Source: Thiorhodospira sibirica ATCC 700588
GTDB lineage: Bacteria; Pseudomonadota; Gammaproteobacteria; Ectothiorhodospirales; Ectothiorhodospiraceae
Reading direction: 5' to 3'
Length of the DNA: 34,683 bases
Assembly: GCF_000227725.2 (NCBI RefSeq)
Contig: NZ_MU255056.1
Coordinates: forward strand, 717,242 to 751,924
Shown: one piece after another, positions 6,456-34,455 of the stretch
Layout of the letters: each line of letters begins with the position of its first letter
Position numbering within the stretch: position 1 is the first letter of the stretch
Made by a program: the position numbers and the translations under genes
Notes under the pieces: model-generated
What the model saw: only the letters and a program-made list of their open reading frames with translations
The model's database searches: none
Told to the model about the DNA's origin: nothing

Positions 6456-6935
6456 TTAAGGCTCAGCCACCCCCACGCAAGCGCGGCAGATGCCCTGGAT
6501 CTCAAAGATTTGCTGTTGTATGACAAAGCCTTGCTGGTGGATTTTTTGCTGTAATGCGGAGTTGATCCAATGGCCTTTCAATTCCTGAATCTGGCCACAG
6601 GTGCGGCAGATCAGCAAACAGCATTGATGGTGTGTATCCGGCCAGGGACAGCCGACGTAGGCATTCAGGCTTTCGATACGGTGGATGAGGCCCTGTTCCA
6701 GTAAAAAATCCAGGGTGCGATACACGGTGGGGGGTTTGACCATGTGCTCGCGTGAGCTGAGATCGCGGATCAGGTCATAGGCCTTGACCGCTTCATGCGT
6801 CTGCCAGATCTGCGTCAAAACCATCCGGCGCAGGCGGGTCAGTTTGACGCTACGTTGTGTGCATAGGTGTTGTGCGGTTTCCAGCGCCTGATGAATGCAG
6901 CGCTGGTGATTCTGTGGGTTGTCGCAATCGTGCAT
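6456..6935 (-). CDS. zur: Fur-family zinc uptake regulator (Zur-like)
   Basis: The 159-residue protein has a winged-helix DNA-binding half and a metal-binding dimerisation half. The segment KPPTVYRTLDFLLEQGLIHR followed by IESLNAYVGC is characteristic of the Zur branch, rather than Fur or PerR. Two CxxC pairs (CRTC after HHQCCLLI, and CRAC near the C-terminus) form the structural zinc site. Zur normally represses zinc-uptake genes when zinc is sufficient. It starts 9 bases after the EAL/HDOD gene, so the two are probably cotranscribed. No zinc transporter gene is nearby, so the branch assignment rests on motif style. Confidence 0.8.
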   Translation of the reverse strand: MHDCDNPQNHQRCIHQALETAQHLCTQRSVKLTRLRRMVLTQIWQTHEAVKAYDLIRDLSSREHMVKPPTVYRTLDFLLEQGLIHRIESLNAYVGCPWPDTHHQCCLLICRTCGQIQELKGHWINSALQQKIHQQGFVIQQQIFEIQGICRACVGVAEP

Positions 6936-6944
6936 GAGTGTCAG

Positions 6945-8177
6945 TTATGAGATATCCACGCCCATTTCTTCAATAAAGGCGTGGGCCCAGTTAAGGGATT
7001 CAAAATACAGTTGGCTGGTGTGGTGCTCATTCAGTTGGGCAAAATGGCGACACTGATCAATGGTGCCGGATTCAAACAAAATGACACAGCTTAGGGCCTC
7101 GCCCATTGATCCCTTGTGTTCAAGCAGGGCGTCGGTGATGTCTTGCGCCAAGGGGAGTTCTTCAAGGATTTCCGGCATGGGAATTTGCAACAGCTGATCG
7201 AGTACCGAAAACAGGCCGACCATGAAATATTTTTCCGAGCCTTGTTGCCCGGTATGCCGGGCCAACAGCTCACACATTCGCGCCCGGACAAAGGCTTCCT
7301 TGATCAAGACCGTGGGCTGTTCGTTGATTCCGGCCAGCGTCAGGAGAGTGACCCATTTGCGAATGGCCTCGGTTCCCAGAAGGGTGACGGCGTGGCGCAC
7401 GCTGTCTACCTTGCGCCCCAGACCAAAAAAAGCGGAGTTGATCAGCCGCAGAAGTTGGTAACTGATCGAAATATCTAAGGAAATCAGGCGTTGCAGTTCT
7501 TCCAGATTCAGTTCGCTGTCTTGAAACTGTGCCATGAGGCGCATCAGGGAGAGGCGATTGGGCGGGATGGTTTTGCCCCGACAGATCACGGGGCGGGCGA
7601 GATGGTAGCCTTGGAAATAGGAAAAACCGAGTTCTATGCAGAGGTCGTGCTGTGTCTGGTTTTCTATCTTTTCCGCCAGCAGCTGTGTTCCGGTGGGGGA
7701 TAAATACCGCAGCTGGGCAAGCAGTTCATTTTTGCTTTTATTTTGGACTTCAAGTTTGACAATATCGGCCAAGTCGAGAAAGGCCGCATTATTGACCTCA
7801 TACACCCAATCATCCAGCGCAATCTTGAAGCCTTCCCGCGAGAGCTGGGCCACCGCCTGCAAGATGGGTTCATCGGCAACCACATTTTCCAGGACTTCAA
7901 GCACCACCCGTTGCTTGGGGAGGGTATTGAGTACGCCACTGGCCAGCAGGTTATGCGTGACATTGATGAAGGCAAGCTGCTGCTCGGCGAGTACATTCAA
8001 TCCTACGGCGGTCATCGCCTGCAAAATCAGATGACAGGAGGCCTGATCGCCGTCCAGAATATTGGCATTCTGGTCCGCCTCGGTTTCCCGAAACAGCAGT
8101 TCATAGGCATATACATCGCCCGCACGATCATAGATCGGCTGCCGTGCAATAAAAACGTCCGTCATAGGAACATTCAT
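6945..8177 (-). CDS. EAL/HDOD signalling protein (YuxH type)
   Basis: The protein is 410 residues. An N-terminal EAL-like domain (about 5-200) is followed by an HDOD domain (about 205-390) with ISLDISISYQLLRLINSAF. Most c-di-GMP phosphodiesterase positions can be matched: E26 in YELLFR (EAL becomes ELL), N72, E94, D122-D123, K141, E169 and Q189. However, the loop after the two aspartates reads DDWVYE instead of DFGTG, which is often linked to lost activity. This arrangement is typical of YuxH-type proteins that act as c-di-GMP receptors or scaffolds. Alternative start at 8165; the AAGGG site does not decide between them. Confidence 0.85.
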   Translation of the reverse strand: MNVPMTDVFIARQPIYDRAGDVYAYELLFRETEADQNANILDGDQASCHLILQAMTAVGLNVLAEQQLAFINVTHNLLASGVLNTLPKQRVVLEVLENVVADEPILQAVAQLSREGFKIALDDWVYEVNNAAFLDLADIVKLEVQNKSKNELLAQLRYLSPTGTQLLAEKIENQTQHDLCIELGFSYFQGYHLARPVICRGKTIPPNRLSLMRLMAQFQDSELNLEELQRLISLDISISYQLLRLINSAFFGLGRKVDSVRHAVTLLGTEAIRKWVTLLTLAGINEQPTVLIKEAFVRARMCELLARHTGQQGSEKYFMVGLFSVLDQLLQIPMPEILEELPLAQDITDALLEHKGSMGEALSCVILFESGTIDQCRHFAQLNEHHTSQLYFESLNWAHAFIEEMGVDIS

Positions 8178-8364
8178 CCCTTGAGTATCCAGAGGCCTCC
8201 CTCATGGCTCCTTATATTTTCCAAGAGCAATCCGCGTCCGAGGGGAGGTAACCCAACGCGCTATATTTACTGTATCAGCCACATAAGTTTAACGATAAAG
8301 CATACATACCAATAGGGCAAAACGCCGGGTTTGAAGCCTCCCATCACGACCGGTCAGGGCATAT

Positions 8365-8745
8365 TCAGGCGGCCTGCTCAGGGATTTCTTCACCCATACG
8401 TACAATCTGGTTGCGCCCGTCAAAATAACACAAGGTGGGCTTGAAACGCTCCGCCTGGGCCGCATCCATCTGGGTATAGGCGCAGATGATGACGCGATCC
8501 CCTGGACTGGCCTTGTGTGCGGCGGCGCCATTGACCGAGATCACGCCACTGCCGGCCTCGGCACGGATGGCATAGGTCACAAAGCGTTCCCCATTGGCCA
8601 GATTGTAAATATGAATCTGTTCGTAAGGACGAATCCCTGATGCTTCTAGCAAATGTGCGTCGATTGCGCAAGACCCTTCGTATTCTAATTCGGAATGGGT
8701 CACAGTTACCTTGTGTAATTTGCACTTGAGTAATGTAAGCAACAT
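8365..8745 (-). CDS. panD: Aspartate 1-decarboxylase proenzyme
   Basis: PanD converts L-aspartate to beta-alanine for pantothenate synthesis. The proenzyme self-cleaves at a Gly-Ser bond to generate the pyruvoyl cofactor. The 126 residues match the family, and the cleavage motif YEGSCAID places it at G24-S25. A ribosome site GAGGA precedes the ATG. It is the last gene of the minus-strand run panB-panC-panD, supplying beta-alanine to PanC, which joins it to pantoate. Confidence 0.96.
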
Positions 8746-8807
8746 GGTGGATATCCTCGCAAAGCGTAAAGGTCAAGTATAGGAAAAAAGGCGTGCATTA
8801 TGCGCGA

Positions 8808-9668
8808 TCAAGGGCCATGCGGCAAATCCAGAGGGCAATTATCAATCAGGCGCGCTTTACCTAGCCAGGCACTGGCAAGAATCACCCGTTGTCGGTCAGC
8901 GGGCGTAGGTAGTGCCAGGTCATGGCGACGGCGCACGGTGAGGTATTCCGGCAAGAAACCCGCAGCCTGTAAATCTTTCAGGGCGCGTGCTTCGTGTAGC
9001 GCGATAGGCTCAGCAGAACTCAGCAGCGCTGTGCGCAGTTGTTGCAGCGTGCGATAGAGCGCCGGGGCTTGCGCGCGCTGTTGTGGGGTGAGATAGCTGT
9101 TGCGCGAACTCATGGCCAACCCATCGCTTTCGCGCAGGGTGGGGTGGGCGATGATGTTGACCGGGATGTTGAGATCTTCGACCATGCGCTGAATCAGCAA
9201 CAGCTGCTGAAAGTCTTTTTCACCAAACACCGCGCACTGGGGACGTACCAGATTGAACAGTTTGCAAACCACCGTCGCGACTCCAGCAAAATGTCCTTTG
9301 CGGTGTTCGCCTTCCAGAATCTCGCTCAGGGTGGGTACGATGACCGTGCTGATGTCATGCAGGGGGCGAGGATAGATGAGCTGCGCACTTGGGGCAAACA
9401 GTACATCCACCTGATGGGTCTCAAGCAAGGCACGGTCGGCGTCCAAGGTACGCGGGTAGGCCGCGAGATCCTCGGCGCGATCAAATTGCAGGGGATTGAC
9501 AAATACGCTGACCACGACCCGCTCAGCCACGCGGCGGGCGTGCTGGATTAATGCCAGATGACCGGCATGAAGATTGCCCATGGTCGGTACCAGGGCGATG
9601 GATTGATCCTGTTGGCGCCATGCCGCCAAGGCATTGTCCAGGGCATGTGGGGTGGTAACAGAGAGCAT
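8808..9668 (-). CDS. panC: Pantothenate synthetase
   Basis: PanC ligates pantoate and beta-alanine with ATP. The frame is open further upstream, but the family N-terminus (MLSVTTPHALDNALAAWR, then SIALVPTMGNLHAGHLALI) fixes the start at 9668, 23 bases after the panB stop. The result is 286 residues, normal length. HIGH-type nucleotide motif GNLHAGH, the KMSKS-equivalent SSRNSYLT, and VFGEKDFQQLLLIQRMV are visible. It lies between panB and panD in one operon. Confidence 0.96.
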   Translation of the reverse strand: MLSVTTPHALDNALAAWRQQDQSIALVPTMGNLHAGHLALIQHARRVAERVVVSVFVNPLQFDRAEDLAAYPRTLDADRALLETHQVDVLFAPSAQLIYPRPLHDISTVIVPTLSEILEGEHRKGHFAGVATVVCKLFNLVRPQCAVFGEKDFQQLLLIQRMVEDLNIPVNIIAHPTLRESDGLAMSSRNSYLTPQQRAQAPALYRTLQQLRTALLSSAEPIALHEARALKDLQAAGFLPEYLTVRRRHDLALPTPADRQRVILASAWLGKARLIDNCPLDLPHGP

Positions 9669-9691
9669 TGGGAGCGATTTTCCGGATTGAG

Positions 9692-10507
9692 CTACTGACT
9701 GAATAGATGCTGGGCGTCGGGGAATTGCCGCTGGCGCACGGCCTCGACATAGGACGCCAGTGCGCCTTGCACGGTTCCGCTGCTCTGTAAGAAATCTTTG
9801 GCAAAGCGGGGCAGGCGCTCGCTCATGCCGAGCACATCGTGCAACACCAGAATCTGGCCATCGCAGTCTGCCCCCGCGCCAATACCAATCACCGGGATGC
9901 TGACCCGTGAGCGGATTTGCCCGGCCAGGGGGGCGGGGACGCATTCCAGCAATAATAAATCCGCCCCGGCATCCTGTAATTGGAGCGCATCACTGAGCAT
10001 ACGTTCCGCCGCCCCGGCATCACGCCCCTGCACACGATAGGCGCCCAGTTTATGTATGGATTGCGGGCGCAGTCCCAGATGTGCGCACACCGGAACGCCA
10101 TGCGCCGCCAATGCCGCCACCACCTCGGCCTGACTGGCGTCGCCTTCCAGCTTGACCGCCTGCACACCGCCTTCCTGCATCAGGCGGGCGGCATTGTGCA
10201 GGGCTTGTTTGGGATCACAATAGCTCATGAACGGCATATCAGCCATCACGAAGGCTTGCTGGGTGCCACGCACCACCATCTGCGCATGATAAATCATGTG
10301 ATCCATGTTGACCGGGATGGTGCTTTCATGTCCTTGCACCACCATCCCCAGGGAATCGCCCACCAGAATTAAATCAACCCCGGCCTGTTCCAGCAGGCGG
10401 GCAAAGCCTGCATCGTAGGCCGTCAGGCTGACAATGGGCTGCCCCGCTTGGCGCAGGGTGCGCAAATACTCAATGCTGATGCGACCGTTTGCTTTGGATA
10501 CGCTCAT
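9692..10507 (-). CDS. panB: 3-methyl-2-oxobutanoate hydroxymethyltransferase
   Basis: PanB transfers a hydroxymethyl group from methylene-tetrahydrofolate to ketoisovalerate, giving ketopantoate. At 271 residues it has the usual length. Motifs include VSLTAYDAGFARLLEQAGVD, LVGDSLGMVVQGH, KLEGD and PVIGIGAGADCDGQILVLHD. These bind the magnesium ion, the keto acid and the folate. It follows folK, so a folate gene and a folate-using gene share the run. Confidence 0.96.
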   Translation of the reverse strand: MSVSKANGRISIEYLRTLRQAGQPIVSLTAYDAGFARLLEQAGVDLILVGDSLGMVVQGHESTIPVNMDHMIYHAQMVVRGTQQAFVMADMPFMSYCDPKQALHNAARLMQEGGVQAVKLEGDASQAEVVAALAAHGVPVCAHLGLRPQSIHKLGAYRVQGRDAGAAERMLSDALQLQDAGADLLLLECVPAPLAGQIRSRVSIPVIGIGAGADCDGQILVLHDVLGMSERLPRFAKDFLQSSGTVQGALASYVEAVRQRQFPDAQHLFSQ

Positions 10508-10599
10508 AAAATGTGCAGTTCGTGTGGTGAGTCGGTGTTATGCGGCCTGGGATGCTTGGCGTTGATCTGGCCACCGGCTGATGGCAGTGGACCTGATCT

Positions 10600-11211
10600 T
10601 TAAAGCGGCGCCTTGCGTGGTGCGGCAGACGCGCCGACTTGAACCTGCCAGACGCCGCAGGGCTGCTGTGGATGCGTTAATACCGGCTGAAGCCCCTCGG
10701 CGGGACAGTGTGCAAGCAATGTCGTTAATGACCCCAGTCCGGGAATATTTAACGTGGGTGCAATTTCTGCCAAAGGATACAACACAAAGGCGCGCATGGG
10801 CAGCCCCGGATGGGGAAGCGTCAGTTGGGGATGTTGCATCTGTTGCTGTCCATACAGCAGCAAATCCAGATCCAGCGTGCGTGGCCCCCAACGTACCCCA
10901 TTGCGCGTGCGGCCCTGCTGTTGTTCCAGATCCTGCAAGGCCTGAAGCAAGGCAAAGGGATCCAGGGTTGAGCTGAGTTCGGCCACGGCATTGACATAAT
11001 CGGGCTGGTCAATCGGCCCCATCGGCGGGTTTTGGTAGAGCTGCGAATGCTGGCGCAGGCGTGTACCGGGCAGACGATCCAAAGCCTGTAAGGCGCGCTG
11101 GAGTTGTGCGACGGGGTGATCCAGATTGGCCCCCAGACCGACATAGCATATCACCGCCTGCGATGCTGAGGCGCTTTGCGTCAGGGGGGCGGTTGGGTGC
11201 GCTGCATTCAA
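10600..11211 (-). CDS. folK: Hydroxymethyl-dihydropterin pyrophosphokinase
   Basis: FolK transfers pyrophosphate from ATP to 6-hydroxymethyl-dihydropterin in folate synthesis. YVGLGANLDHP opens the domain at about residue 24. The core motif GPRTLDLDLLLYG carries the metal-binding aspartates, and LPHPGLPMRAFVLYPLAEIAP closes the pterin site. At 203 residues it has an extra N-terminal stretch of about 20 residues (Ala/Ser/Thr-rich) and a C-terminal extension, so the true start could be internal. It begins 3 bases after the upstream Mth938-domain gene. Confidence 0.93.
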   Translation of the reverse strand: MNAAHPTAPLTQSASASQAVICYVGLGANLDHPVAQLQRALQALDRLPGTRLRQHSQLYQNPPMGPIDQPDYVNAVAELSSTLDPFALLQALQDLEQQQGRTRNGVRWGPRTLDLDLLLYGQQQMQHPQLTLPHPGLPMRAFVLYPLAEIAPTLNIPGLGSLTTLLAHCPAEGLQPVLTHPQQPCGVWQVQVGASAAPRKAPL

Positions 11212-11214
11212 GGA

Positions 11215-11586
11215 TCAGTCCTGCCATAATGCCGCCGCCACATGACGGCCTTCGGAAACAAGGAGGTTATAGGTTCGACATGCGGCCTCGGTGCGCATCA
11301 TCTCAAAGCCGATGCCTTTTGCATAGACCTTGGCCATCAGCGGCTGCATGGCGGAGTAGGGCGCATGCTGGCACCCCAATAACAAAAGTTCTGGCGGCTG
11401 CTGGAGCAAAGATAGCAGCTGTTCCAGGTCGAGCTGCGCCGCAGGGGTATGAATCCCGTCGGCAATCACTTGCGTGGGGGTAATCAGTAAATGGCTATGG
11501 TAGGCCCGATGATTCACCCAAATCTGCCCGTCGGCATAAGCCGTGACCCAATTGACCCCATCGGGCAGGTCTTGCTGCATTTTCAT
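11215..11586 (-). CDS. Mth938/NDUFAF3-like domain protein (DUF498)
   Basis: The 123-residue protein carries the DUF498/Mth938 fold signature: ITPTQVIADG, then LLLLGCQHAP, then KGIGFEMMRTEAACRTYNLL and a short tail VSEGRHVAAALW. The mitochondrial relative NDUFAF3 is a complex I assembly factor; the bacterial role is unsettled. It heads the minus-strand run folK-panB-panC-panD, starting after the csrA terminator, so it has its own promoter or a poorly visible one within 11587-11670. Confidence 0.85.
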   Translation of the reverse strand: MKMQQDLPDGVNWVTAYADGQIWVNHRAYHSHLLITPTQVIADGIHTPAAQLDLEQLLSLLQQPPELLLLGCQHAPYSAMQPLMAKVYAKGIGFEMMRTEAACRTYNLLVSEGRHVAAALWQD

Positions 11587-11670
11587 GGTGCAATATTTGA
11601 AGATGTCATGGCACTGCGTTGGCAGTGCAAGGCGGCGGGGTGAGCAGCGCTGAATGGACGCTGTGGCAAG

Positions 11671-11709
11671 GTGTCAAAATCATGCCTCGCCCGCAACGGA
11701 CGAGGCATG
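11671..11709 (-). terminator. Rho-independent terminator after csrA
   Basis: On the minus strand, CATGCCTCG and CGAGGCATG (11681-11689 and 11701-11709) form a 9-bp stem with further pairing inside the loop. GATTTTG follows immediately. It starts 12 bases after the csrA stop and separates csrA from the folK-pan run. Confidence 0.85.
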
Positions 11710-11721
11710 GAAAAGCCAGGA

Positions 11722-11931
11722 TCAGGAGTTTCCACCTGCGACAAAGCCAGCCTGTTGCTGCTCTTCTTGTTCGCGCTTGATGCGTTCGTAAATCTCTTCA
11801 CGATGCACTGCTATATCTTTGGGGGCATTGATGCCAATCCGTACCTGATTACCTTTAACACCCAGCACGGTTACGGCAACTTCGTCACCGATCATCAGGG
11901 TTTCGCCTACACGACGCGTCAAAATTAACAT
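11722..11931 (-). CDS. csrA: Carbon storage regulator, RNA-binding
   Basis: CsrA is a small dimeric protein that binds GGA motifs in mRNA leaders and controls translation. The start at 11931 gives the conserved [16 protein letters not shown] and follows an AGAAGGA site; the longer frame adds nine non-family residues. The 69 residues include the binding segment near the start and [11 protein letters not shown] with the RNA-contacting arginine. Position downstream of lysC and alaS is classical for gammaproteobacteria. A terminator follows. Confidence 0.96.
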
Positions 11932-12157
11932 AGTCCTTCTCTCCAAAAATAACTTCAATCACCTAAGTGGCTATACCAGACGTCTTGATCCGGTATCTCC
12001 AGCGTCTGGCCGGTCATCATCTATTTAATTGTTTAATATGTATGGTTTTTTTCTTGCCAAAGCCCAAGGCCTGACAAGCATACACCGAAAAACCCACGGT
12101 ATATGGAGCACACCCAAAGGGTCTGCTGCATTCTTTGAGCGCACGGCTTACATCAGC
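11932..12157 (-). other. csrA leader region
   Basis: These 226 bases between lysC and csrA contain a 7-bp dyad CCAGACG/CGTCTGG (11976-11982 and 12003-12009) with a 20-base loop, plus AT-rich stretches suited to a promoter. I cannot fix -35/-10 boxes with confidence. No tRNA gene is visible. Confidence 0.4.
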
Positions 12158-13384
12158 TCAGTCCACTGTGGGATTTTCCAGGCCAAAGGCATCGTGCAGG
12201 GCACGTACACCCAGCTCCAGATATTTTTCATCCACCACCACAGAGATCTTGATCTCAGAGGTAGAAATCATGCGGATGTTAATGCCTACCGAGGCCAGCG
12301 TCTTGAACATCTGGCTGGCAATACCGGCGTGCGAACGCATCCCCACACCCACCAGGGAAATCTTGACGATCTTTTTGTCGCCAGAGACTTGCCGCGCCCC
12401 GAGTTTGTCGGCTTGTAGCTGTAAAAGACCCAGCGCTTTGTCGTAATCGTTGCGGTGTACGGTGAAGGTAAAGTCGGTGGTGCCATCTGCGCCGATGTTT
12501 TGCACGATCATATCGACTTCGATATTGGCATCGGCAATGGGGCCCAGGATTTGGTAGGCAACGCCCGGCTGATCCGGAACGCCCAGCACGGTCAGCTGTG
12601 CCTCATTTTGATTAAAAGCAATGCCCGAAATGAGGGCTTGTTCCATGACGTTTTCCTCAAGCGTGATGAGTGTGCCCTCGCCTTCCTTGAAGCTGGACAG
12701 CACCCTTAAAGGGACATTGTATTTGCCGGCAAATTCCACCGACCGAATCTGCAAAACCTTGGAGCCCAAACTGGCCATTTCCAGCATCTCCTCAAAGGTG
12801 ATGCGTGAGAGGCGCCGGGCGTTGGGTACGACTCTGGGATCAGTGGTGTAAACGCCGTCCACATCGGTATAGATCTGGCATTCCTGGGCCTTGAGTGCCG
12901 CCGCCAGCGCCACTGCGGTGGTATCGGAACCGCCTCGGCCCAGGGTCGTGATATTGCCATGTTCGTCCACGCCCTGAAAGCCTGCCACCACAATGGCATA
13001 GCCATCCGCCAGATCACGGCGAATCCGGGCGCCATCAATATCGCGAATCCGCGCCTTGTTGTGGGCGCTGTCGGTCAGGATTTGTACCTGGGCGCCGGTA
13101 TAGGAGCGCGCCAGACAACCCTTGTTATTCAAGGCCATGGCAAGCAGGGCAATGGTGACCTGCTCGCCCGTGGACAGCAACACATCCAGCTCACGGCCAT
13201 CAATGCCGGGGTTGATTTCGCGGGCCAGACCCAGCAGGCGATCCGTTTCGCCGCTCATCGCCGAGACCACCACCACGACATCATGTCCGTTGCGGCGGTA
13301 ATCAATGACCTTATCCGCAACATGCTGGATGCGTTCTACGGTGCCCACTGAGGTACCGCCAAATTTTTGTACAATCAATGCCAT
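12158..13384 (-). CDS. lysC: Aspartate kinase
   Basis: Aspartokinase phosphorylates L-aspartate, the first step to lysine, threonine and methionine. The 408 residues begin LIVQKFGGTSVGTVERI, the nucleotide-binding motif. GRGGSDTTAVALAAAL and YTDVDGVYTTDPRVV follow in the kinase domain. Two ACT domains occupy about 265-405 (ISGIAFNQNEAQLTVLGVPD and VGVGMRSHAGIASQMF), which mediate allosteric feedback. An internal start for a separate beta subunit is possible but not shown. It lies between alaS and csrA. Confidence 0.95.
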   Translation of the reverse strand: MALIVQKFGGTSVGTVERIQHVADKVIDYRRNGHDVVVVVSAMSGETDRLLGLAREINPGIDGRELDVLLSTGEQVTIALLAMALNNKGCLARSYTGAQVQILTDSAHNKARIRDIDGARIRRDLADGYAIVVAGFQGVDEHGNITTLGRGGSDTTAVALAAALKAQECQIYTDVDGVYTTDPRVVPNARRLSRITFEEMLEMASLGSKVLQIRSVEFAGKYNVPLRVLSSFKEGEGTLITLEENVMEQALISGIAFNQNEAQLTVLGVPDQPGVAYQILGPIADANIEVDMIVQNIGADGTTDFTFTVHRNDYDKALGLLQLQADKLGARQVSGDKKIVKISLVGVGMRSHAGIASQMFKTLASVGINIRMISTSEIKISVVVDEKYLELGVRALHDAFGLENPTVD

Positions 13385-27207: not shown

Positions 27208-27221
27208 TCAGAACTATGCAC

Positions 27222-27258
27222 AAAGCCGACCCGCCTTCATGGGGGTCGGCTTTTTGTG
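27222..27258 (+). terminator. Rho-independent terminator after groESL
   Basis: AAAGCCGACCC (27222-27232) pairs with GGGTCGGCTTT (27243-27253), followed by TTTTTGTGTTT. It ends only about 30 bases before the next gene, leaving little room for an independent promoter there. Confidence 0.9.
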
Positions 27259-27288: not shown

Positions 27289-28488
27289 ATGGCAATACTG
27301 GCGCACCTTGAGGCGCAGCAACAGCAGCGTCAGCGACAAACACCCCGTGTATCGGTGTTGGTAGGGGAAGTGACCGCCGCCAATGCCATATGGGCCGACT
27401 GGCATCAACAGCGCGCCCTGCCAGCGGTTTACTGGTCGCTACATCATCCCCGCAGCAGTACCTCGCATTGGCTGGAAACCGTTTTTGCCAGCCACGCCCC
27501 CACACAGGCCGCCTGGCGTTATGTGGCGCAGCTCAGTCAGCAAAACCTCCCTGCGTTACAGGCGCAGCTGGGTGCGCAATCGATCTATCAGCGCAAATTA
27601 TGGTATGAGCACTGGATCAATCTTGATGATCCAGTCTTGGCGGCATTATTACGCGGTCTTTTGGAATCAGCCATGGCTCACACCCCGCCGACACTATTGC
27701 AGGCCCTGGGCTGGGTGCATAAATTTCAGCCGTATGGCAGTCCCGAGCAACACCTCATGGCATCGCTGGCAACGCTGATCCCCCAAACACAGCTACCGGG
27801 CCTGTTATGGACTGACCTGCCAGCAGACCCGGCGGTATTGAGCCGATGGCTGGAAGGCGCCGCCCGTCTGGCTGAAGCAGTTCCGGCCTTGCCATTGGCC
27901 GTTACTCTCTCCGCTACAAGCTATACCCAGTATATGCAGAGTATCCCTGAATCACGCCATAAAGCTCTGATTCGGGAAGGTTATCTACCGCTGGCCCCGC
28001 TGGACGCAGCGCGGCCAGACACACCGCCGCCCTCTGTCACCAACATCTTGCGCCATTATCACGTTGCCGAGGGGGTGTGGCATCAGGCCACGGCCTTGCA
28101 TCAAACGCTGGCAGCAACACCACCGCTGGATGCCGATCGGGCGCGCAGTCAGGCAGAACGCTTTTTATTTAATCTGCTGCAATCCATCCCGGAATTTAAG
28201 GATCGCTTTGTGTTGAATGCCCGCCTGCCGATACAGTTTGGTCAGGAGACGATGGAAGTGGATTTTCTGGCTGATCCGCCAGGACTCGTTCTGGAGCTGG
28301 ATGGCTATTATCACTTTCAGGACGCTGTATGTTATCGACGCGATCGGCGCAAGGACCTCTTGTTGCAACAGCACGGCTATACGGTGGTCCGCTACCTGGC
28401 AGAGGATGTGGTTAGCCATTTGGAGGAAATTCTGGCTACAATTCGTCATGCCTTGGTACATGCGCCCGGCAGACCCATTGATAGATAA
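27289..28488 (+). CDS. DUF559 (Vsr-like) nuclease fused to a degenerate P-loop-like region
   Basis: The 399-residue protein has two parts. Residues about 15-270 begin with a hydrophobic strand (RVSVLVG) where a P-loop would sit, but GxxxxGK[ST] is missing. LPGLLWTDLPAD and LPLAVTLSATSY later resemble Walker B and sensor strands, so this may be a dead NTPase fold; that is inference. Residues about 280-390 are a DUF559 endonuclease-like domain of the Vsr/PD-(D/E)xK group: E290, D325 in EVDFL, E336-L-D338 followed by G-Y-Y-H, D352-R-R, and HGYTVVRYLAEDV. A GTG lies one codon upstream. No strong ribosome site is visible. It leads the three-gene module. Confidence 0.8.
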   Translation: MAILAHLEAQQQQRQRQTPRVSVLVGEVTAANAIWADWHQQRALPAVYWSLHHPRSSTSHWLETVFASHAPTQAAWRYVAQLSQQNLPALQAQLGAQSIYQRKLWYEHWINLDDPVLAALLRGLLESAMAHTPPTLLQALGWVHKFQPYGSPEQHLMASLATLIPQTQLPGLLWTDLPADPAVLSRWLEGAARLAEAVPALPLAVTLSATSYTQYMQSIPESRHKALIREGYLPLAPLDAARPDTPPPSVTNILRHYHVAEGVWHQATALHQTLAATPPLDADRARSQAERFLFNLLQSIPEFKDRFVLNARLPIQFGQETMEVDFLADPPGLVLELDGYYHFQDAVCYRRDRRKDLLLQQHGYTVVRYLAEDVVSHLEEILATIRHALVHAPGRPIDR

Positions 28489-28523
28489 AGATTTTTTATC
28501 AAATACTTATGCGAGGATGCTTT

Positions 28524-29615
28524 ATGGAAACCCCCACCGCCCCACGGCTTGATGTTACCGATCTTATCCGCTTGCGCCTGTTGTGTGCCCCGCCAGAACA
28601 GGGTTTGACCTATGCAAACCTAAAAAAAGATCTCAAAGACTGGCTGCCCGCCACACTCCCTTGGCCGCAAACCCTGGATGATCATCTCAAGACCCTGCAG
28701 GCCAGCGGTGAGCTCATAAGCCCTGGGCGCGCCCGTTACCTTCTCAGCGAGGCCGCTGTGGCGCAGTCACAACACAAACTCGGGCGGTCAGCGCAGGCAG
28801 ACCGGCCACGCTGGAATCACTTCAGTCAGGGTGAATTGCAGGCCCTGGCGCTGGGGCTTGAATTTCCGCGCAATGAGGCCGAGCGCAAGCGTTTGCGCAG
28901 TGTCGATGGGCTGCGTGCCTTGATTTTGGTCAAGCACTACCAGCTGTCAACCCGCCCTTTTCCGACCTTGACGCAGGCCCGCGATGCCTTGTTGTGGCAG
29001 CATCTCAGTCATCCCGACACCGCCATGCGCCTGCAATCCCAGCTTAAGGCGCTGAACACACCGGCTTTTTCTCAGGGGATGCTGATGAAGGTGTTGCTCA
29101 ACGACCTGCTGGCACCCGGCAATCCGCCAGCTTTGAACTGGCAACCCGCCCTCAATCAACTGGTGGCCAAGTGCATCGGTGCCCGACGTATTGATGCCAG
29201 TGAATTGCGCAAGGCGGTGGTGCGCCGCGCCATGACGCCCCCCGCAGAGCTTTCGGCAAGCCCGCCGTCTGCACTCGCAGCGGTATCCAGCCCGCCCTTG
29301 AGAGATCGCCTCCCAGCGCCCATTGATCTGGTGCAGTTTGCCCGGGTGGTTATGAATACAGCCCAGCACACTCAGAGCGGGCGCTTTGGCAGGGACAAGA
29401 TTTTTATCTCCCATGTCTGGGCGCAGTTGTGTCAGCAAGCGGCGCAGTTTGGTCTGGACGAGGCACAGTTTAAGGAATACCTCACCCGTGCCAACAATCA
29501 GGGCCTGCTGCGTCTCAGTCGCGCCGATATGGCACATATACTGGATCAGGAAGATGTGGCACGCTCAGAAACCCATTATCTTAATTCCGCCTTTCATTTT
29601 ATCCATCTGGACTGA
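28524..29615 (+). CDS. Unrecognised protein with likely winged-helix domains at both ends
   Basis: I do not recognise the family. The chosen ATG at 28524 has GAGGA upstream and gives 363 residues; an in-frame ATG at 28509 adds five. Residues about 5-70 look like a winged helix (DLIRLRLLCAPPEQGLTYANL, then LDDHLKTLQASGELIS). The C-terminal 90 residues (FISHVWAQLCQQ to NNQGLLRLSRADM) look like a second one. The middle is helical, with a Pro/Ala/Ser-rich hinge near 235-260. It is 35 bases after the nuclease gene and 17 before the large ATPase gene, consistent with a DNA-binding or adaptor subunit. This role is inferred. Confidence 0.7.
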   Translation: METPTAPRLDVTDLIRLRLLCAPPEQGLTYANLKKDLKDWLPATLPWPQTLDDHLKTLQASGELISPGRARYLLSEAAVAQSQHKLGRSAQADRPRWNHFSQGELQALALGLEFPRNEAERKRLRSVDGLRALILVKHYQLSTRPFPTLTQARDALLWQHLSHPDTAMRLQSQLKALNTPAFSQGMLMKVLLNDLLAPGNPPALNWQPALNQLVAKCIGARRIDASELRKAVVRRAMTPPAELSASPPSALAAVSSPPLRDRLPAPIDLVQFARVVMNTAQHTQSGRFGRDKIFISHVWAQLCQQAAQFGLDEAQFKEYLTRANNQGLLRLSRADMAHILDQEDVARSETHYLNSAFHFIHLD

Positions 29616-29632
29616 CTGACAAGGAGTCCGCC

Positions 29633-32600
29633 ATGTCATCACCCAATCCCCATATCCAGGCCCTGCAATCTGCCCAGGCTAGCGATCTATTTCACGGAGT
29701 CACCCACCATCATCAGGTTTGGTTGCCTGATCCCTTTGATATCGACTTGATTCATCAGCAGGCGCGGGATGTCTATACCCAGCTCTTGCATCGCGCCAGC
29801 AGCCCGAATGGTGCCGATTCCGGCCGGATTTTATTATTGCTAGGTGACTCGGGTGCCGGCAAAACGCATTTAATGCGCGCCTTTCGCAACCAGACGCATC
29901 AGCAAAATCTGGGCTATTTTGCCTACATGCAGATGACCACCGAGTCTGATAATTATGCCCGCTATGTGCTGCGCTATACCATTGATTCACTGGATAAACC
30001 CTATTACACACCCTGGGGTACCGGCACCGCACTGATGCGCCTGTCAGACAGCCTCATAGAGCACCGCCAGATCCCGCCCAAAGTTCGGGAAATCTTGCGT
30101 GATGATCAGAAGCCTATAAAGGGTCGCATTGAGCTGGTTTATCGCATTGCGGATCATTTGCTGAAACACTCGAACCTGCAGCATATTGACCTTGATCTGC
30201 TTCGCGCCTTCTTGCTGTTGCAACTGCGCGATCCGGCGATCAATGCCCGGGTCTTTAAATTGCTGCGCTGTGAGACTTTGGCGACCTATGATCAAAACCT
30301 GCTCGGTGGTCTGCCGTCCAAAGACGCCCAGGAAGACCCGCCGCGTATGCTCTATGCCCTCGGGCAGCTGATTCGGGCGCTTAATGCCGGTGCCCTGGTG
30401 ATCTGTCTGGATCAGCTAGAAGATATTCAGAAAATGCAGGATGCAGACAGACGGTTTCGTGACGCAATGAGCCGCGCCGTCAGCTTGGCCGAGATCCCCA
30501 ACGTGGTGGTAGTGCTTTCATGCCTGACGGATTTTTACACCTTATTGCAGAATAACCTGATACGCACCCACATCGACCGGATTGAACGGGACCCTGCGCC
30601 GGTCAAGCTGAATGCAGAGCGTTCGGCAGACGAAATTGCCTTACTGATTGCTCGGCGCCTGGAGGATTTCTGGGACAGACAGAATATAGCAAGCGACCCG
30701 CAGCAGCCTTTGTTTCCCTTTAGTCATGCGCTACCCCAGCAGTTGGCGGGTCTGAGAACCCGAGATGTCTTGGAGCATTGCCGCAACTTGCTTCAAGACT
30801 CCCCGACGCCGAATACACCGACGCCAACCACGCTGTTGCCCTGCGATCAGAAATGGAACGATCACCGCGCCCAGGCCCATGAAATCCCCCATGAGGATGA
30901 GGCCCTGCTGGCCTTATTGCGCGTGGCGATTGAACAGTGTGCTGAGGAATTGCCCGGCGGATACCTGTTTAAGGTCAAGCCACACGGCGAGCGTCTGCGC
31001 GTGGATATCTGCGCGGCGAATGGGCAGATCGTGCAGGCGCTGTGCATCCAGTTATGTCAAAAGCCTGCAAGCGGCGGCGCGCTGCAAAAACAGATTGATG
31101 AACTGTATGCACAGGCAACGCAAAAGCAAACGGTAGGCACAGCGCAGCAACTGGGCATGGCGCTGGAACACGCTGGCCCACGCATTGCCGTTGCGGTGCG
31201 TTCCAGCGAGTTTCCCAGCAATCCCAAAACGCAGATTGCCAAACGCCTGGGACAATTTATCGCCCAAGGTGGGCGGCGGGTTGTTGTGGAAAACTCCGAC
31301 TGGCGGGAAATGGTGGCCCTGCAATCCTTTCGCCAGCAATATGCACAACACGACTGCTTTGCTACCTGGCTGCAAACCGAAAAACCGCTCAGCCATTTAC
31401 CCTCCTTGCAGGCGATGCTGGATTTGGCCAGCCTGAGCGTAGCACCCCCGCCGTCTGAGCACACGGCACCCCCGGCGCCTGCCGTTGCACCAACGCCCTC
31501 CCCACAACCCCCACCCACGACCCACAACACCGCATCCCCGCCAGCAACATCTGTACCCGGCACACTGTATCTGGGCATGTCTGCTGAATATCAGCCCAAG
31601 GCGTTGCAGCTGCCGCTGGAGTCCTTGGTACGCCATGCCGCCTTTCTTGGCGGCTCAGGCAGCGGCAAGACCACGCTGGCGCTGAATCTGATTGAGCAGC
31701 TGCTGTTGCAGGATATTCCCGTCATTTTCATTGACCGCAAAGGCGATCTTTGCAGTTACGCCAAGGAACAACGCTGGCAAGCGGCGCTTGCCCCTGAGCG
31801 GCTGGCACAGCGAGAGCAGCTCTCCCAGCGTATAGAGGTGGCCGTTTATACTCCCGGAACCTTAGGCTCTCAAGGGCGCGGGCTGAGCATTCCCATCGCA
31901 CCGGCAGGCTTGGGCGAATTATCCAGTGGCGAACGTCAGCAACTGGCACAACTGTCCGCCGCCGCCTTGAGTGGGCTGCTAGGCTATCGGCAAAGCAATC
32001 AGGATCGTCACCGGACAGCCATGTTAGGCCAGGCCATTGCCGTTTTGGCAGAACTTGAACCGCAGCGCCGCTTGAATCTGCAATGCCTGATGGAATTTAT
32101 CGACCGCCAGGACCCCAGCCTGATTCAGGCCCTGGGCAAGCTGGAATCCAAACACCTCAGCAAACTGGTACAAGACCTGCAGACCCTGAGTTTTACCAAC
32201 AACAGCCTGTTTATGGCCGAGGCTGAACCGCTGTGTATTGAAAGCCTGCTGGGACGCGGTCAATATCAACGCCCTGGACGCACCCGCCTGTCCATTATCA
32301 GCACCGCCTTTTTGGGCAATAACGACAATCTGCTGTTTTGGGTCGCACAGTTCTTACTGGAGCTGGGGCGCTATGCCAGTCATCACCCTGCCTCACGTTT
32401 GCAAGCCGCCGTACTGCTTGATGAGGCCGATCTATACCTGCCCGCGCAATCCAAACCGCCCACCAAAGAACCGCTGGAAAGCCTGCTGCGCAAGGCCCGC
32501 TCGGCCGGGCTGTCGCTGCTATTGTCCACGCAAAGCCCGGGTGATCTGGATTACAAAGGACGTGATCAGATCGGCACCTGGTTTATCGGCAAGATCAAAG

Positions 32601-32815
32601 AAGAAAACGCCATCCGCAAGCTCAAACCCATGCTTCAGGACGCCCGGACAGACATCTCCGGTAAACTTGCCGCCCAGGAAACCGGTGCCTTTTACTGGCT
32701 CGATGGAACACAGGTTACGGCCTTACAGGCGCAGCGCTCCCTGATCCTGGCCGAACAGATCCCCGCCGATGAAATCCTGCATCTGGCCGCCGCCAGCCGT
32801 ACACCCGCCCGATAA
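29633..32815 (+). CDS. Dual-ATPase protein: N-terminal AAA/STAND-like, C-terminal HerA/DUF87-like
   Basis: A strong AAGGAG site precedes the ATG. The 1060 residues hold two P-loop modules. The first has Walker A GDSGAGKT (71-78) and Walker B ALVICLDQLED (254-264). A middle region (about 415-600) is followed by a Pro/Thr/Ala linker (603-643). The second has Walker A GGSGSGKTT (673-681), VIFIDRKGDLCSYA, Walker B VLLDEADLYLP (926-936), and LLSTQSPGDLDYKGRDQIGTW with GKIKEENAIRKL, the HerA/DUF87-type C-terminus. HerA-like rings often move DNA with nucleases; AAA/STAND modules often sense ligands. It is the last gene of the module. Confidence 0.85.
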   Translation: MSSPNPHIQALQSAQASDLFHGVTHHHQVWLPDPFDIDLIHQQARDVYTQLLHRASSPNGADSGRILLLLGDSGAGKTHLMRAFRNQTHQQNLGYFAYMQMTTESDNYARYVLRYTIDSLDKPYYTPWGTGTALMRLSDSLIEHRQIPPKVREILRDDQKPIKGRIELVYRIADHLLKHSNLQHIDLDLLRAFLLLQLRDPAINARVFKLLRCETLATYDQNLLGGLPSKDAQEDPPRMLYALGQLIRALNAGALVICLDQLEDIQKMQDADRRFRDAMSRAVSLAEIPNVVVVLSCLTDFYTLLQNNLIRTHIDRIERDPAPVKLNAERSADEIALLIARRLEDFWDRQNIASDPQQPLFPFSHALPQQLAGLRTRDVLEHCRNLLQDSPTPNTPTPTTLLPCDQKWNDHRAQAHEIPHEDEALLALLRVAIEQCAEELPGGYLFKVKPHGERLRVDICAANGQIVQALCIQLCQKPASGGALQKQIDELYAQATQKQTVGTAQQLGMALEHAGPRIAVAVRSSEFPSNPKTQIAKRLGQFIAQGGRRVVVENSDWREMVALQSFRQQYAQHDCFATWLQTEKPLSHLPSLQAMLDLASLSVAPPPSEHTAPPAPAVAPTPSPQPPPTTHNTASPPATSVPGTLYLGMSAEYQPKALQLPLESLVRHAAFLGGSGSGKTTLALNLIEQLLLQDIPVIFIDRKGDLCSYAKEQRWQAALAPERLAQREQLSQRIEVAVYTPGTLGSQGRGLSIPIAPAGLGELSSGERQQLAQLSAAALSGLLGYRQSNQDRHRTAMLGQAIAVLAELEPQRRLNLQCLMEFIDRQDPSLIQALGKLESKHLSKLVQDLQTLSFTNNSLFMAEAEPLCIESLLGRGQYQRPGRTRLSIISTAFLGNNDNLLFWVAQFLLELGRYASHHPASRLQAAVLLDEADLYLPAQSKPPTKEPLESLLRKARSAGLSLLLSTQSPGDLDYKGRDQIGTWFIGKIKEENAIRKLKPMLQDARTDISGKLAAQETGAFYWLDGTQVTALQAQRSLILAEQIPADEILHLAAASRTPAR

Positions 32816-32958: not shown

Positions 32959-33732
32959 TTAAATTTTCTTTCCTATGTAAAACACATACCCATAATATTC
33001 CTTATATTTATTATATAATTCAGCTTCATGTCTTTGGTATCTTACAAGATCTTCAGCTGCTTTATTCCCCGCATATTTTTTCAAAAATAGTTCTTGTGCA
33101 GGCACTTGAGGAACATAAAAATTTTCAGTCCAGCAGTTCTCTGGCAAAACAAAAGCAGCCATCGGTATGTATCCAGCTTTTTGCATTTGGCCTATCTTGT
33201 TTGCAATAGTATCAATTTCCGGATAAGCATCTTTCCAAAATCTATCAATCTCATCCGGCCTCGTTTCGGTGAACCAGGATGCCTCCGAAACGGCAATAAA
33301 ACCTCCAGTCTTGAGGAACTTACGCCATTCGTTTATGCCACGCTCAAAGCCGATATTATAGATAGCCCCCTCTGACCAGATCAGATCTAGCGCTTCATTT
33401 TCAAAGGAAAGATCGTCCATTGTACCAACAATGCCTGCCACTCTATTCTGGAGATTTTTCTTTCGGGCACTGTCGTTGAAAATGTCAATAAAGTCGGCAA
33501 ACAAATCAATGCCAGTGATATGCCCTGACGTGTGTTCCGCCAGCACCATTGTCTGACCACCTGTTCCGCATCCTATATCGGCTATTTTTGATTCACTTGT
33601 AAGGTTATCAATAAAACTCAAAGCTTTTGCGGTTACATCGGGACTCCCGGGCCCTTGTCGTTCTATGCTCGAAAAATACTCACAGATCAATTTAAAGTCA
33701 AATTCGTGTATTGATTTATCTGTCTGGCTCAT
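32959..33732 (-). CDS. Class I SAM-dependent methyltransferase
   Basis: The 257-residue protein has the Rossmann-type methyltransferase motif [19 protein letters not shown] near residue 50, GIDLFADFI (motif II), and [17 protein letters not shown] (motif IV). The sequence [14 protein letters not shown] precedes motif I. The substrate is not evident; small-molecule methylation is more likely than DNA, since no DNA-methylase motif is seen. Codons are AT-rich, unlike the genes to the left, suggesting recent transfer. GAGGATAGG precedes the ATG. It lies downstream of an attC site, so it may be an integron cassette. Confidence 0.85.
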
Positions 33733-33875
33733 ATTTCTTACCTATCCTCTTTTATTAGCGGCATTAGCAATAAACTAAACGCAACAAGCTGTTGACACGA
33801 TTAAAATATTTTTAATTGCTTTGTTTTCTTACAAAATTCCTTAGAGATTCATCACGCACAAAAATTTTTATGTGC
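33733..33875 (-). promoter_or_regulatory. AT-rich leader of the methyltransferase gene
   Basis: These 143 bases are strongly AT-rich and precede the methyltransferase on the minus strand. TTTAATTGC-like stretches and TTGACACG-type pieces offer several possible promoters, none decisive. Cassette genes usually depend on an upstream promoter, so an own promoter would be notable. Confidence 0.3.
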
Positions 33876-33947
33876 GCTTAACATCCAAGCTCACCAACGG
33901 CAATGGGGGCAGCGGAATTGCCGTTCGAGTGCAGCGCCTTGTTAGGC
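33876..33947 (-). other. attC: Integron attC recombination site
   Basis: The 72-base block has outer cores GCTTAAC (33876-33882, RYYYAAC) and GTTAGGC (33941-33947, GTTRRRY) that pair with each other. A perfect 9-bp inner stem AACGGCAAT/ATTGCCGTT lies within. Read on the minus strand it begins GCCTAACAAGGCGCTGCA, very like the common attC start in proteobacterial chromosomal integrons. It directly ends the DUF2442 gene, the normal place for a cassette site. Confidence 0.88.
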
Positions 33948-34174
33948 ACAATATGTTCTCGCAAAAACTCTGGTGCAAAATCTGCTCCATTTGTCCATGA
34001 CAATGTATGCCCCTCGATTTTGAACGATTTAAAAAATTGAATATCTTTTAACGGCTCGAATATTTCTCCATACAACTCAGATGAAAGATCGATTTCTCCT
34101 TGCGCGCCATCATTAAATGATAGCCATATTTTATAGCCATTTATATACTTAGCATCTTTTACATGGATAAACAT
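33878..34174 (-). CDS. DUF2442 protein, cassette-encoded
   Basis: The first 75 residues match DUF2442: FIHVKDAKYINGYKIWLSF, NDGAQGEIDLSSEL, FEPLKD, and LSWTNGADFAPEFLREHI. The last 22 residues or so (from NKALHSNGNSAAP) are encoded by the attC site, and the stop lies in its outer core. Its start is 5 bases beyond the DUF4160 stop. DUF4160-DUF2442 pairs recur in bacterial genomes and are often thought toxin-antitoxin-like; their role is not firmly known. Confidence 0.88.
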   Translation of the reverse strand: MFIHVKDAKYINGYKIWLSFNDGAQGEIDLSSELYGEIFEPLKDIQFFKSFKIEGHTLSWTNGADFAPEFLREHIVPNKALHSNGNSAAPIAVGELGC

Positions 34175-34179
34175 GAAAT

Positions 34180-34437
34180 TTACTCCAACGGCTCAATTTT
34201 CGATAGTGGTTTTCTATTCATGGCTGCCTGCCAATTTGCCATGAGTTCATCTTGGTGTAAAACGTACCAATCAAGTACTGCACTCAAAGCTCTCCTTGGA
34301 AATCTTCCAGTTACAACGCCTGTTTCAATATCTACGGTAATCTCATACTCTCCATATTCAGCATGAAAATGCGCGGGGGCATGTTCACGAATATGCATTC
34401 GTATGATGATTCCGAGGAATCGGCTTATCTCCGGCAT
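34180..34437 (-). CDS. DUF4160 protein, cassette-encoded
   Basis: The start at 34437 gives 85 residues beginning MPEISRFLGIIIRMHIREHA, then PAHFHAEYGEYEITVDIETG, the DUF4160 signature with conserved His residues. An AGGAAGAG site lies just upstream; the longer frame reads back through the attC and intron and is not coding. It is cotranscribed with the DUF2442 gene behind it. The two genes form one cassette between attC sites. Confidence 0.88.
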   Translation of the reverse strand: MPEISRFLGIIIRMHIREHAPAHFHAEYGEYEITVDIETGVVTGRFPRRALSAVLDWYVLHQDELMANWQAAMNRKPLSKIEPLE

Positions 34438-34455
34438 ATGCTCTCTTCCTTTTTT

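Follow-up and report, generated by a model that had tools for sequence, protein, structure and literature searches.

Three adjacent genes of Thiorhodospira sibirica ATCC 700588 (P1, P2 and P3) encode a nuclease-domain protein, a winged-helix protein and a double ATPase, and they move as a set between bacteria, probably to destroy invading DNA. We put the probability at roughly 0.58 that they form a mobile restriction-like translocase-nuclease of the 'HerA/FtsK capture' type, with P3 as a two-layer motor, P2 as an adaptor and P1 as the cutter. HerA/FtsK capture systems are known as a prediction only, and the module described here is a compact, conserved example with clear borders that can be cloned and tested. 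Coordinates given without a locus name refer to the window, the whole stretch of 34,683 nucleotides that was analysed.

Gene layout and domain composition

The three genes are preceded by groEL, and all lie on the plus strand. A stem-loop followed by a T-run (27220..27258, plus strand), resembling an intrinsic terminator, was read directly in the sequence as GCCGACCC...GGGGTCGGC then TTTTT. It is absent from the listing of the hairpin scan because its loop is too long for that scan. This element closes the groESL unit, so that P1-P2-P3 forms a separate operon. P1 (27289..28488, plus strand) encodes 399 amino acids from an ATG. The longer open reading frame for P2 runs from 28509 to 29615 (368 amino acids), but the start at 28524 has a better ribosome site (AGGA), and P2 was placed at 28524..29615 (plus strand), which leaves a gap of 35 bases after P1. 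P3 (29633..32815, plus strand, 1060 amino acids) follows after 17 bases and has the ribosome site AAGGAG. The initial annotation had described three plus-strand genes with gaps of 35 and 17 bases; all the reading frames were found, and the 35-base gap is that measured from the start at 28524. Chance is excluded as the origin of the order P1-P2-P3, since the order is conserved in 13 Nitrosomonadaceae genomes.

P1 carries a DUF559 domain at residues 309-389 (Pfam; E 4.4e-9, score 36.6 bits, cutoff 20.6), and its profile matched the solved endonuclease-like protein 3hrl (E 0.0037). Residues E290, D325, E336 and D338, which had been proposed beforehand together with the domain, were invariant across nine aligned homologues and were present in 14/14 aligned P1 genes, and two distant homologues have them at the equivalent positions; both parts of that proposal are thus upheld. 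With these catalytic-type residues intact, P1 appears to be an active nuclease. No family match was found for its first 280 residues (N-terminal domain, about 1-280), which by eye resemble a degenerate STAND NTPase without the P-loop lysine. In a profile comparison of P1 with the distant P1', the nuclease domain alone aligned. In one copy of the module (L100), a stop codon interrupts P1 at position 300, and P2 and P3 are intact. Among the papers searched, none described a DUF559 defence system of such a kind.

Searches with P2 gave no convincing sequence match in Pfam, PADLOC or PDB. Its AlphaFold model, built from 10 sequences, had a mean pLDDT of 78 and a pTM of 0.62, with a pLDDT of about 90 at residues 11-90, and showed an N-terminal winged helix (about 16-90), a helical middle and a probable C-terminal winged helix (about 274-366). 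The N-terminal winged helix aligned with that of Hel308 (VIA-align, Z 10.1, rmsd 2.1 over 74 residues), and many MarR/PadR-type regulators were among the VIA-align matches of the model; Foldseek alone returned nothing with E < 0.001. Both ends of P2 had previously been called winged-helix-like. The N-terminal call is supported by the model and its structural matches, whereas at the C-terminal end the order of elements fits a winged helix and the pLDDT falls below 50 at residues 341-360, so that this domain is at most probable on the model. P2 was homologous over its length to P2' of two related loci (L151 and L152) and gave no significant match to the short P2' of two others (L149 and L150). 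Foldseek matches of the P2 model to Nt.BspD6I were of low probability and spanned more than 260 columns. They were kept as a lead only, because PMC10853773 relates such proteins to the FokI DNA-binding domain.

P3 consists of an Orc/Cdc6-like AAA+ ATPase (about 37-393), a region of REase topology (about 404-600), a linker and a HerA/FtsK-type ATPase (about 645-1045). In Pfam it matched AAA_22 (9.7e-13), DUF87 (3.8e-8) and HerA_C (5.6e-7), with DUF87 and HerA_C above their cutoffs. The two complete Walker A/B sets already reported for this 1060-residue protein (71-78 with 260-263, and 673-680 with 930-931) were verified, and both ATPase sites were intact in 35/35 aligned homologues. The structural model of P3 was poor overall (9 sequences, pLDDT 54); its top Foldseek matches were the HerA chains of SIR2-HerA complexes, and the HerA part matched 8wiv by profile (E 6e-9). 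ORC/Cdc6 proteins were among the best structural matches of residues 37-393 (Z about 13-14, with a large rmsd over the two subdomains). The same AAA+ part also matched RdrA (rmsd 2.8 over 149 residues) and TnsC structures, and weak profile matches were obtained to Cdc6 and, in one homologue, to BrxD. Residues 404-600 (pLDDT about 80) follow the order helix-strand-strand-strand-helix-strand of the PD-(D/E)XK core, a fold not confirmed by search. The catalytic acid expected at the motif is replaced there (CQK, CNK, CNR and others), and the REase-like domain should therefore be inactive. No wHTH was seen after this domain in structural and family searches.

Distribution, movement and neighbourhood

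A pattern scan of genome contigs returned nine relatives of P3, eight from Nitrosomonas and one from a Bacteroidales MAG, and all nine were accompanied by P2 and by P1 or the end of P1 in the same order. In a whole-genome search P3 was found in 13/125 Nitrosomonadaceae genomes, the five new ones also carrying P1-P2-P3. Co-occurrence of the three genes, which the initial annotation had put forward as a check, was therefore observed in one order in these 13 genomes and the Bacteroidales MAG. The Bacteroidales contig is 4.5 kb long, which makes its host assignment uncertain, and the same MAG gave the single strong P2 match among 247 Bacteroidota genomes. Within the class of T. sibirica, P2 was detected in 1/369 genomes, that of the window itself, and no other genome of its family held a full P3. 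No relative of P2 or P3 was found in viral contigs by the pattern scan, and plasmid records gave one weak HerA match and nothing more. Several HerA-like proteins from the class of T. sibirica (L002-L006) were rejected as relatives, as the HerA part alone matched and their neighbours were unrelated. In the P3 tree the window sequence grouped with Nitrosomonas (99/98) and next with the Bacteroidales sequence (96/96), all of them P1-bearing, and the window and Bacteroidales sequences had long branches. A distant P1'-P2'-P3' set with DUF559 nucleases was present in two further genomes.

The contigs of N. nitrosa (L031) and of an N. communis MAG (L033) aligned only over 7613-13099, at 91.5% identity. 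The edges of the alignment lie 29 bases before P1 and 3 bases after the P3 stop, and the flanks are unrelated. A comparison of flanks placed the 13 copies at about ten sites, with close relatives sharing one site. Since the edges hug the genes at unrelated sites, the three genes constitute a mobile cassette, and their horizontal movement as a unit is supported. Such sharp borders, together with the TnsC structures among the matches of the AAA+ part, would also suit genes that belong to a transposon-like or mobilising element, as its cargo or as its core (a target-selecting AAA+ protein, a nuclease and a translocase), and that promote their own spread. However, no shared terminal repeats were recognised at the cassette borders, no transposase or recombinase was seen to recur next to the copies, close relatives hold the cassette at one site, and the core form described below is fixed in place, and we regard this explanation as highly improbable. 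Between the same two Nitrosomonas copies, identity was mostly 93-98% in P1, in the HerA part and in the greater portion of P2, but about 80% in the AAA+ part of P3 and at the end of P2 (about 9682-11182 in L031 and L033), as if the AAA+ module of P3 had been exchanged between copies.

The GC and GC3 of P1-P3 in the window resemble those of the surrounding host genes, which indicates that this copy has not recently arrived in the genome. An empty site was sought in the relatives' region after groEL; none could be shown, because that region is not syntenic within the family. DNA beyond 32900 has a GC content of 42%. The stretch at 32959-34440 (about 40% GC) holds a SAM methyltransferase-domain gene and an adjoining DUF2442/DUF4160 pair, and it is likely a separate recent acquisition. 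At another locus, two oxidoreductase-like reading frames of equal length (L043:4598-5782 and 6661-7845) are identical over their initial 70 residues and appear to stem from a recent tandem duplication.

The 88 proteins flanking the Nitrosomonas copies were scanned against PADLOC. Clear defence genes lay near 2/13 copies (raw count), and the other matches look like generic ATPase, helicase or transposon-nuclease genes. The association of the module with defence islands is weak, and the enrichment that the initial annotation had named as a check was unsupported, with these two copies and a restriction-modification set near the window copy on its side. That set, on the minus strand downstream of the window (L040:4735-7666, about 754734-757665 of the contig, G000:C4), comprises a C5 cytosine methylase, a Vsr mismatch endonuclease and an EcoRII-C type endonuclease, about 4-7 kb from the module. 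In N. nitrosa, 2 kb after the module copy, a Thoeris-like TIR gene (ThsB, 8.6e-115) and a SIR2-like gene (ThsA, 3.1e-28) lie on opposite strands (L031:15041-17175). The scan of flanks also returned an HNH nuclease near another copy (L037).

The P2-P3 pair without the nuclease

A search of the phylum with the P2 profile recovered homologues in another class. In that class the P2-P3 pair lacks P1. A divergent lipoprotein gene adjoins it in 17/17 loci that extend far enough to include P2, and 15 of these 17 loci also have a flippase gene. P3 was present in 58/60 genomes of one family, spanning 25 genera; the remaining two are drafts with generic HerA matches only. Strong purifying selection on the P3 of this pair was evident from a dN of 0.096 and a dS of 1.39 (one pair compared), and P2 evolves faster than P3 (dN 0.38 vs 0.10, one pair). 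No full-length P1 was found elsewhere in these genomes, a few of which have isolated DUF559 domains. P2-P3 without P1 is a core, syntenic and vertically inherited pair in that family. Such a core pair at a conserved site is unlike a typical defence system, and it suggests that motor and adaptor can also function in the absence of the P1 nuclease. Given this vertically inherited pair without the nuclease, an antiviral role should not be taken for granted across the whole family of modules.

The chief reason to consider a cellular role is the nuclease-free form, which merits equal attention. P2-P3 would then be at heart a cellular DNA translocator, acting in chromosome or plasmid segregation or in replication-fork processing or repair, and with P1 it would process DNA in the manner of NurA-HerA and not as a weapon. 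The near-complete presence of the pair in one family with its constant lipoprotein neighbour, the selection on P3 and the lack of a full-length P1 in those genomes all agree with this, as do several Nitrosomonas copies that lie among housekeeping genes. On the other hand, the three-gene form is patchy and changes sites, and the apparent swapping of the P3 AAA+ part between copies is more arms-race-like. At least 45 of the 125 listed Nitrosomonadaceae genomes had no match at all and most others had a generic HerA match alone, so these bacteria live without the module. We judge this cellular reading to be unlikely. It is possible, and we suggest it tentatively, that the Orc/Cdc6-HerA motor with its adaptor is a nuclease-independent core DNA machine (for chromosome or plasmid maintenance, or as a fixed anti-plasmid barrier), with the DUF559-armed mobile form as its weaponised relative or with the core form as a domesticated capture system. 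The nuclease-free sister pair offers a natural system for studying the activity of the double motor itself, and for probing whether machines of this kind switch between defensive and housekeeping roles.

Relation to named systems and candidate mechanism

Comparison of P1-P3 with PADLOC, NCBIfam, Pfam and PHROGs gave domain-level matches only and no named system, in agreement, for the PADLOC and NCBIfam models, with the initial annotation. Its further statement that the module is not assignable had to be revised, as the domain set matches that of the 'HerA/FtsK capture systems' described in section 22 of PMC10853773. That section presents them as a counter-invader class predicted from sequence alone, with neighbourhoods of Orc/Cdc6, inactive REase, active REase, HerA/FtsK and wHTH components and sometimes a fast-evolving multi-wHTH protein (2-4 wHTH domains in the subset that has it). 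The inactive REase is inserted between the Orc/Cdc6 AAA+ core and a C-terminal wHTH, and the active REase belongs to one of two families, one of them AbiJ-type (PMC10853773). A BREX-related branch has been added to the class (PMC12839542).

Measured against the description in that section, the module has the Orc/Cdc6 AAA+ and HerA/FtsK ATPases (both in P3) and the wHTH protein (P2), which is likewise fast-evolving, and it shares the mobile neighbourhoods. Its active-looking nuclease and its REase-like domain lacking the catalytic acid may correspond to the two REase components. It differs from the systems described there in that its nuclease is of the DUF559 type with an extra N-terminal domain, in that Orc/Cdc6, dead REase and HerA are combined in one chain (P3) without a clear C-terminal wHTH following the dead REase, and in that its family has a nuclease-free, vertically inherited form. 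The exact module may already be listed in the supplement of PMC10853773.

As a HerA/FtsK capture-type machine, P3 would assemble into a ring in which the two ATPases make up separate layers. Of these, the Orc/Cdc6-like one, with P2, may load on or recognise the target DNA, and the HerA layer would pump dsDNA; the dead REase-like domain between the two layers could serve as a scaffold or sensor. P2 would be a fast-evolving winged-helix subunit for specificity or docking. P1 is predicted to dock on the motor via its N-terminal domain and to cut the DNA that the motor presents, so that invading plasmid or phage DNA is destroyed or the cell is killed. We infer the complex, its target, the DNA cutting and the defence outcome from several lines of evidence: the patchy distribution, the discrete cassette, the conserved nuclease and ATPase residues, the domain set matching that of the predicted class and the faster evolution of P2 than of P3, as with the multi-wHTH protein of that class (class and protein as described in section 22 of PMC10853773). 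By analogy, HerA proteins with nuclease or effector partners form defence complexes in the solved cases. Counted against the capture-type reading were the P2-P3 core pair without P1, the weak link to defence islands, the host-like GC in the window and the lack in the module of a self/non-self mark (methylase). The initial annotation had proposed a sensor-translocase-nuclease defence system; that make-up is supported, as are strict co-occurrence in a single gene order and movement of the genes as a unit, but defence-island enrichment is not, and the nuclease-free pair complicates the defence role.

Other HerA-containing systems were compared with the module. DUF4297-HerA cuts dsDNA, stops phage and forms a large ring complex (PMC11291478), and like SIR2-HerA (Nezha) it resembles the module in having a HerA motor with an effector or nuclease encoded alongside. 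However, P3 carries an additional ATPase as well as a dead REase-like domain and could not accommodate the N-terminal HAS barrel of classic HerA, and the module has a nuclease of another family and an extra winged-helix subunit. Both systems were rejected, as P1 and P2 match neither SIR2 nor DUF4297 in the Pfam and PADLOC scans. In PADLOC the HerA part of P3 matched mad8 of MADS best (E 4.9e-18), but this model has 314 residues and covers the HerA part alone. MADS was also rejected: the module has no methyltransferase, kinase or other genes of the mad1-mad8 set, and in the window it is flanked by groEL and by a methyltransferase-domain gene unrelated to MADS. DndFGH is similarly a restriction-type unit of three genes, one of them for a HerA protein and one for a wHTH protein, but it was rejected because in the PADLOC scan neither P1 nor P2 matches a DndF or DndG model and the HerA part of P3 matches DndH at only 0.0016. 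In the two-gene P2'-P3' loci L151:5026-9212 and L152:6513-11074, the HerA part matches DndH at 5e-25 and 4e-32, respectively, a possible link between the P2-P3 family and DndFGH.
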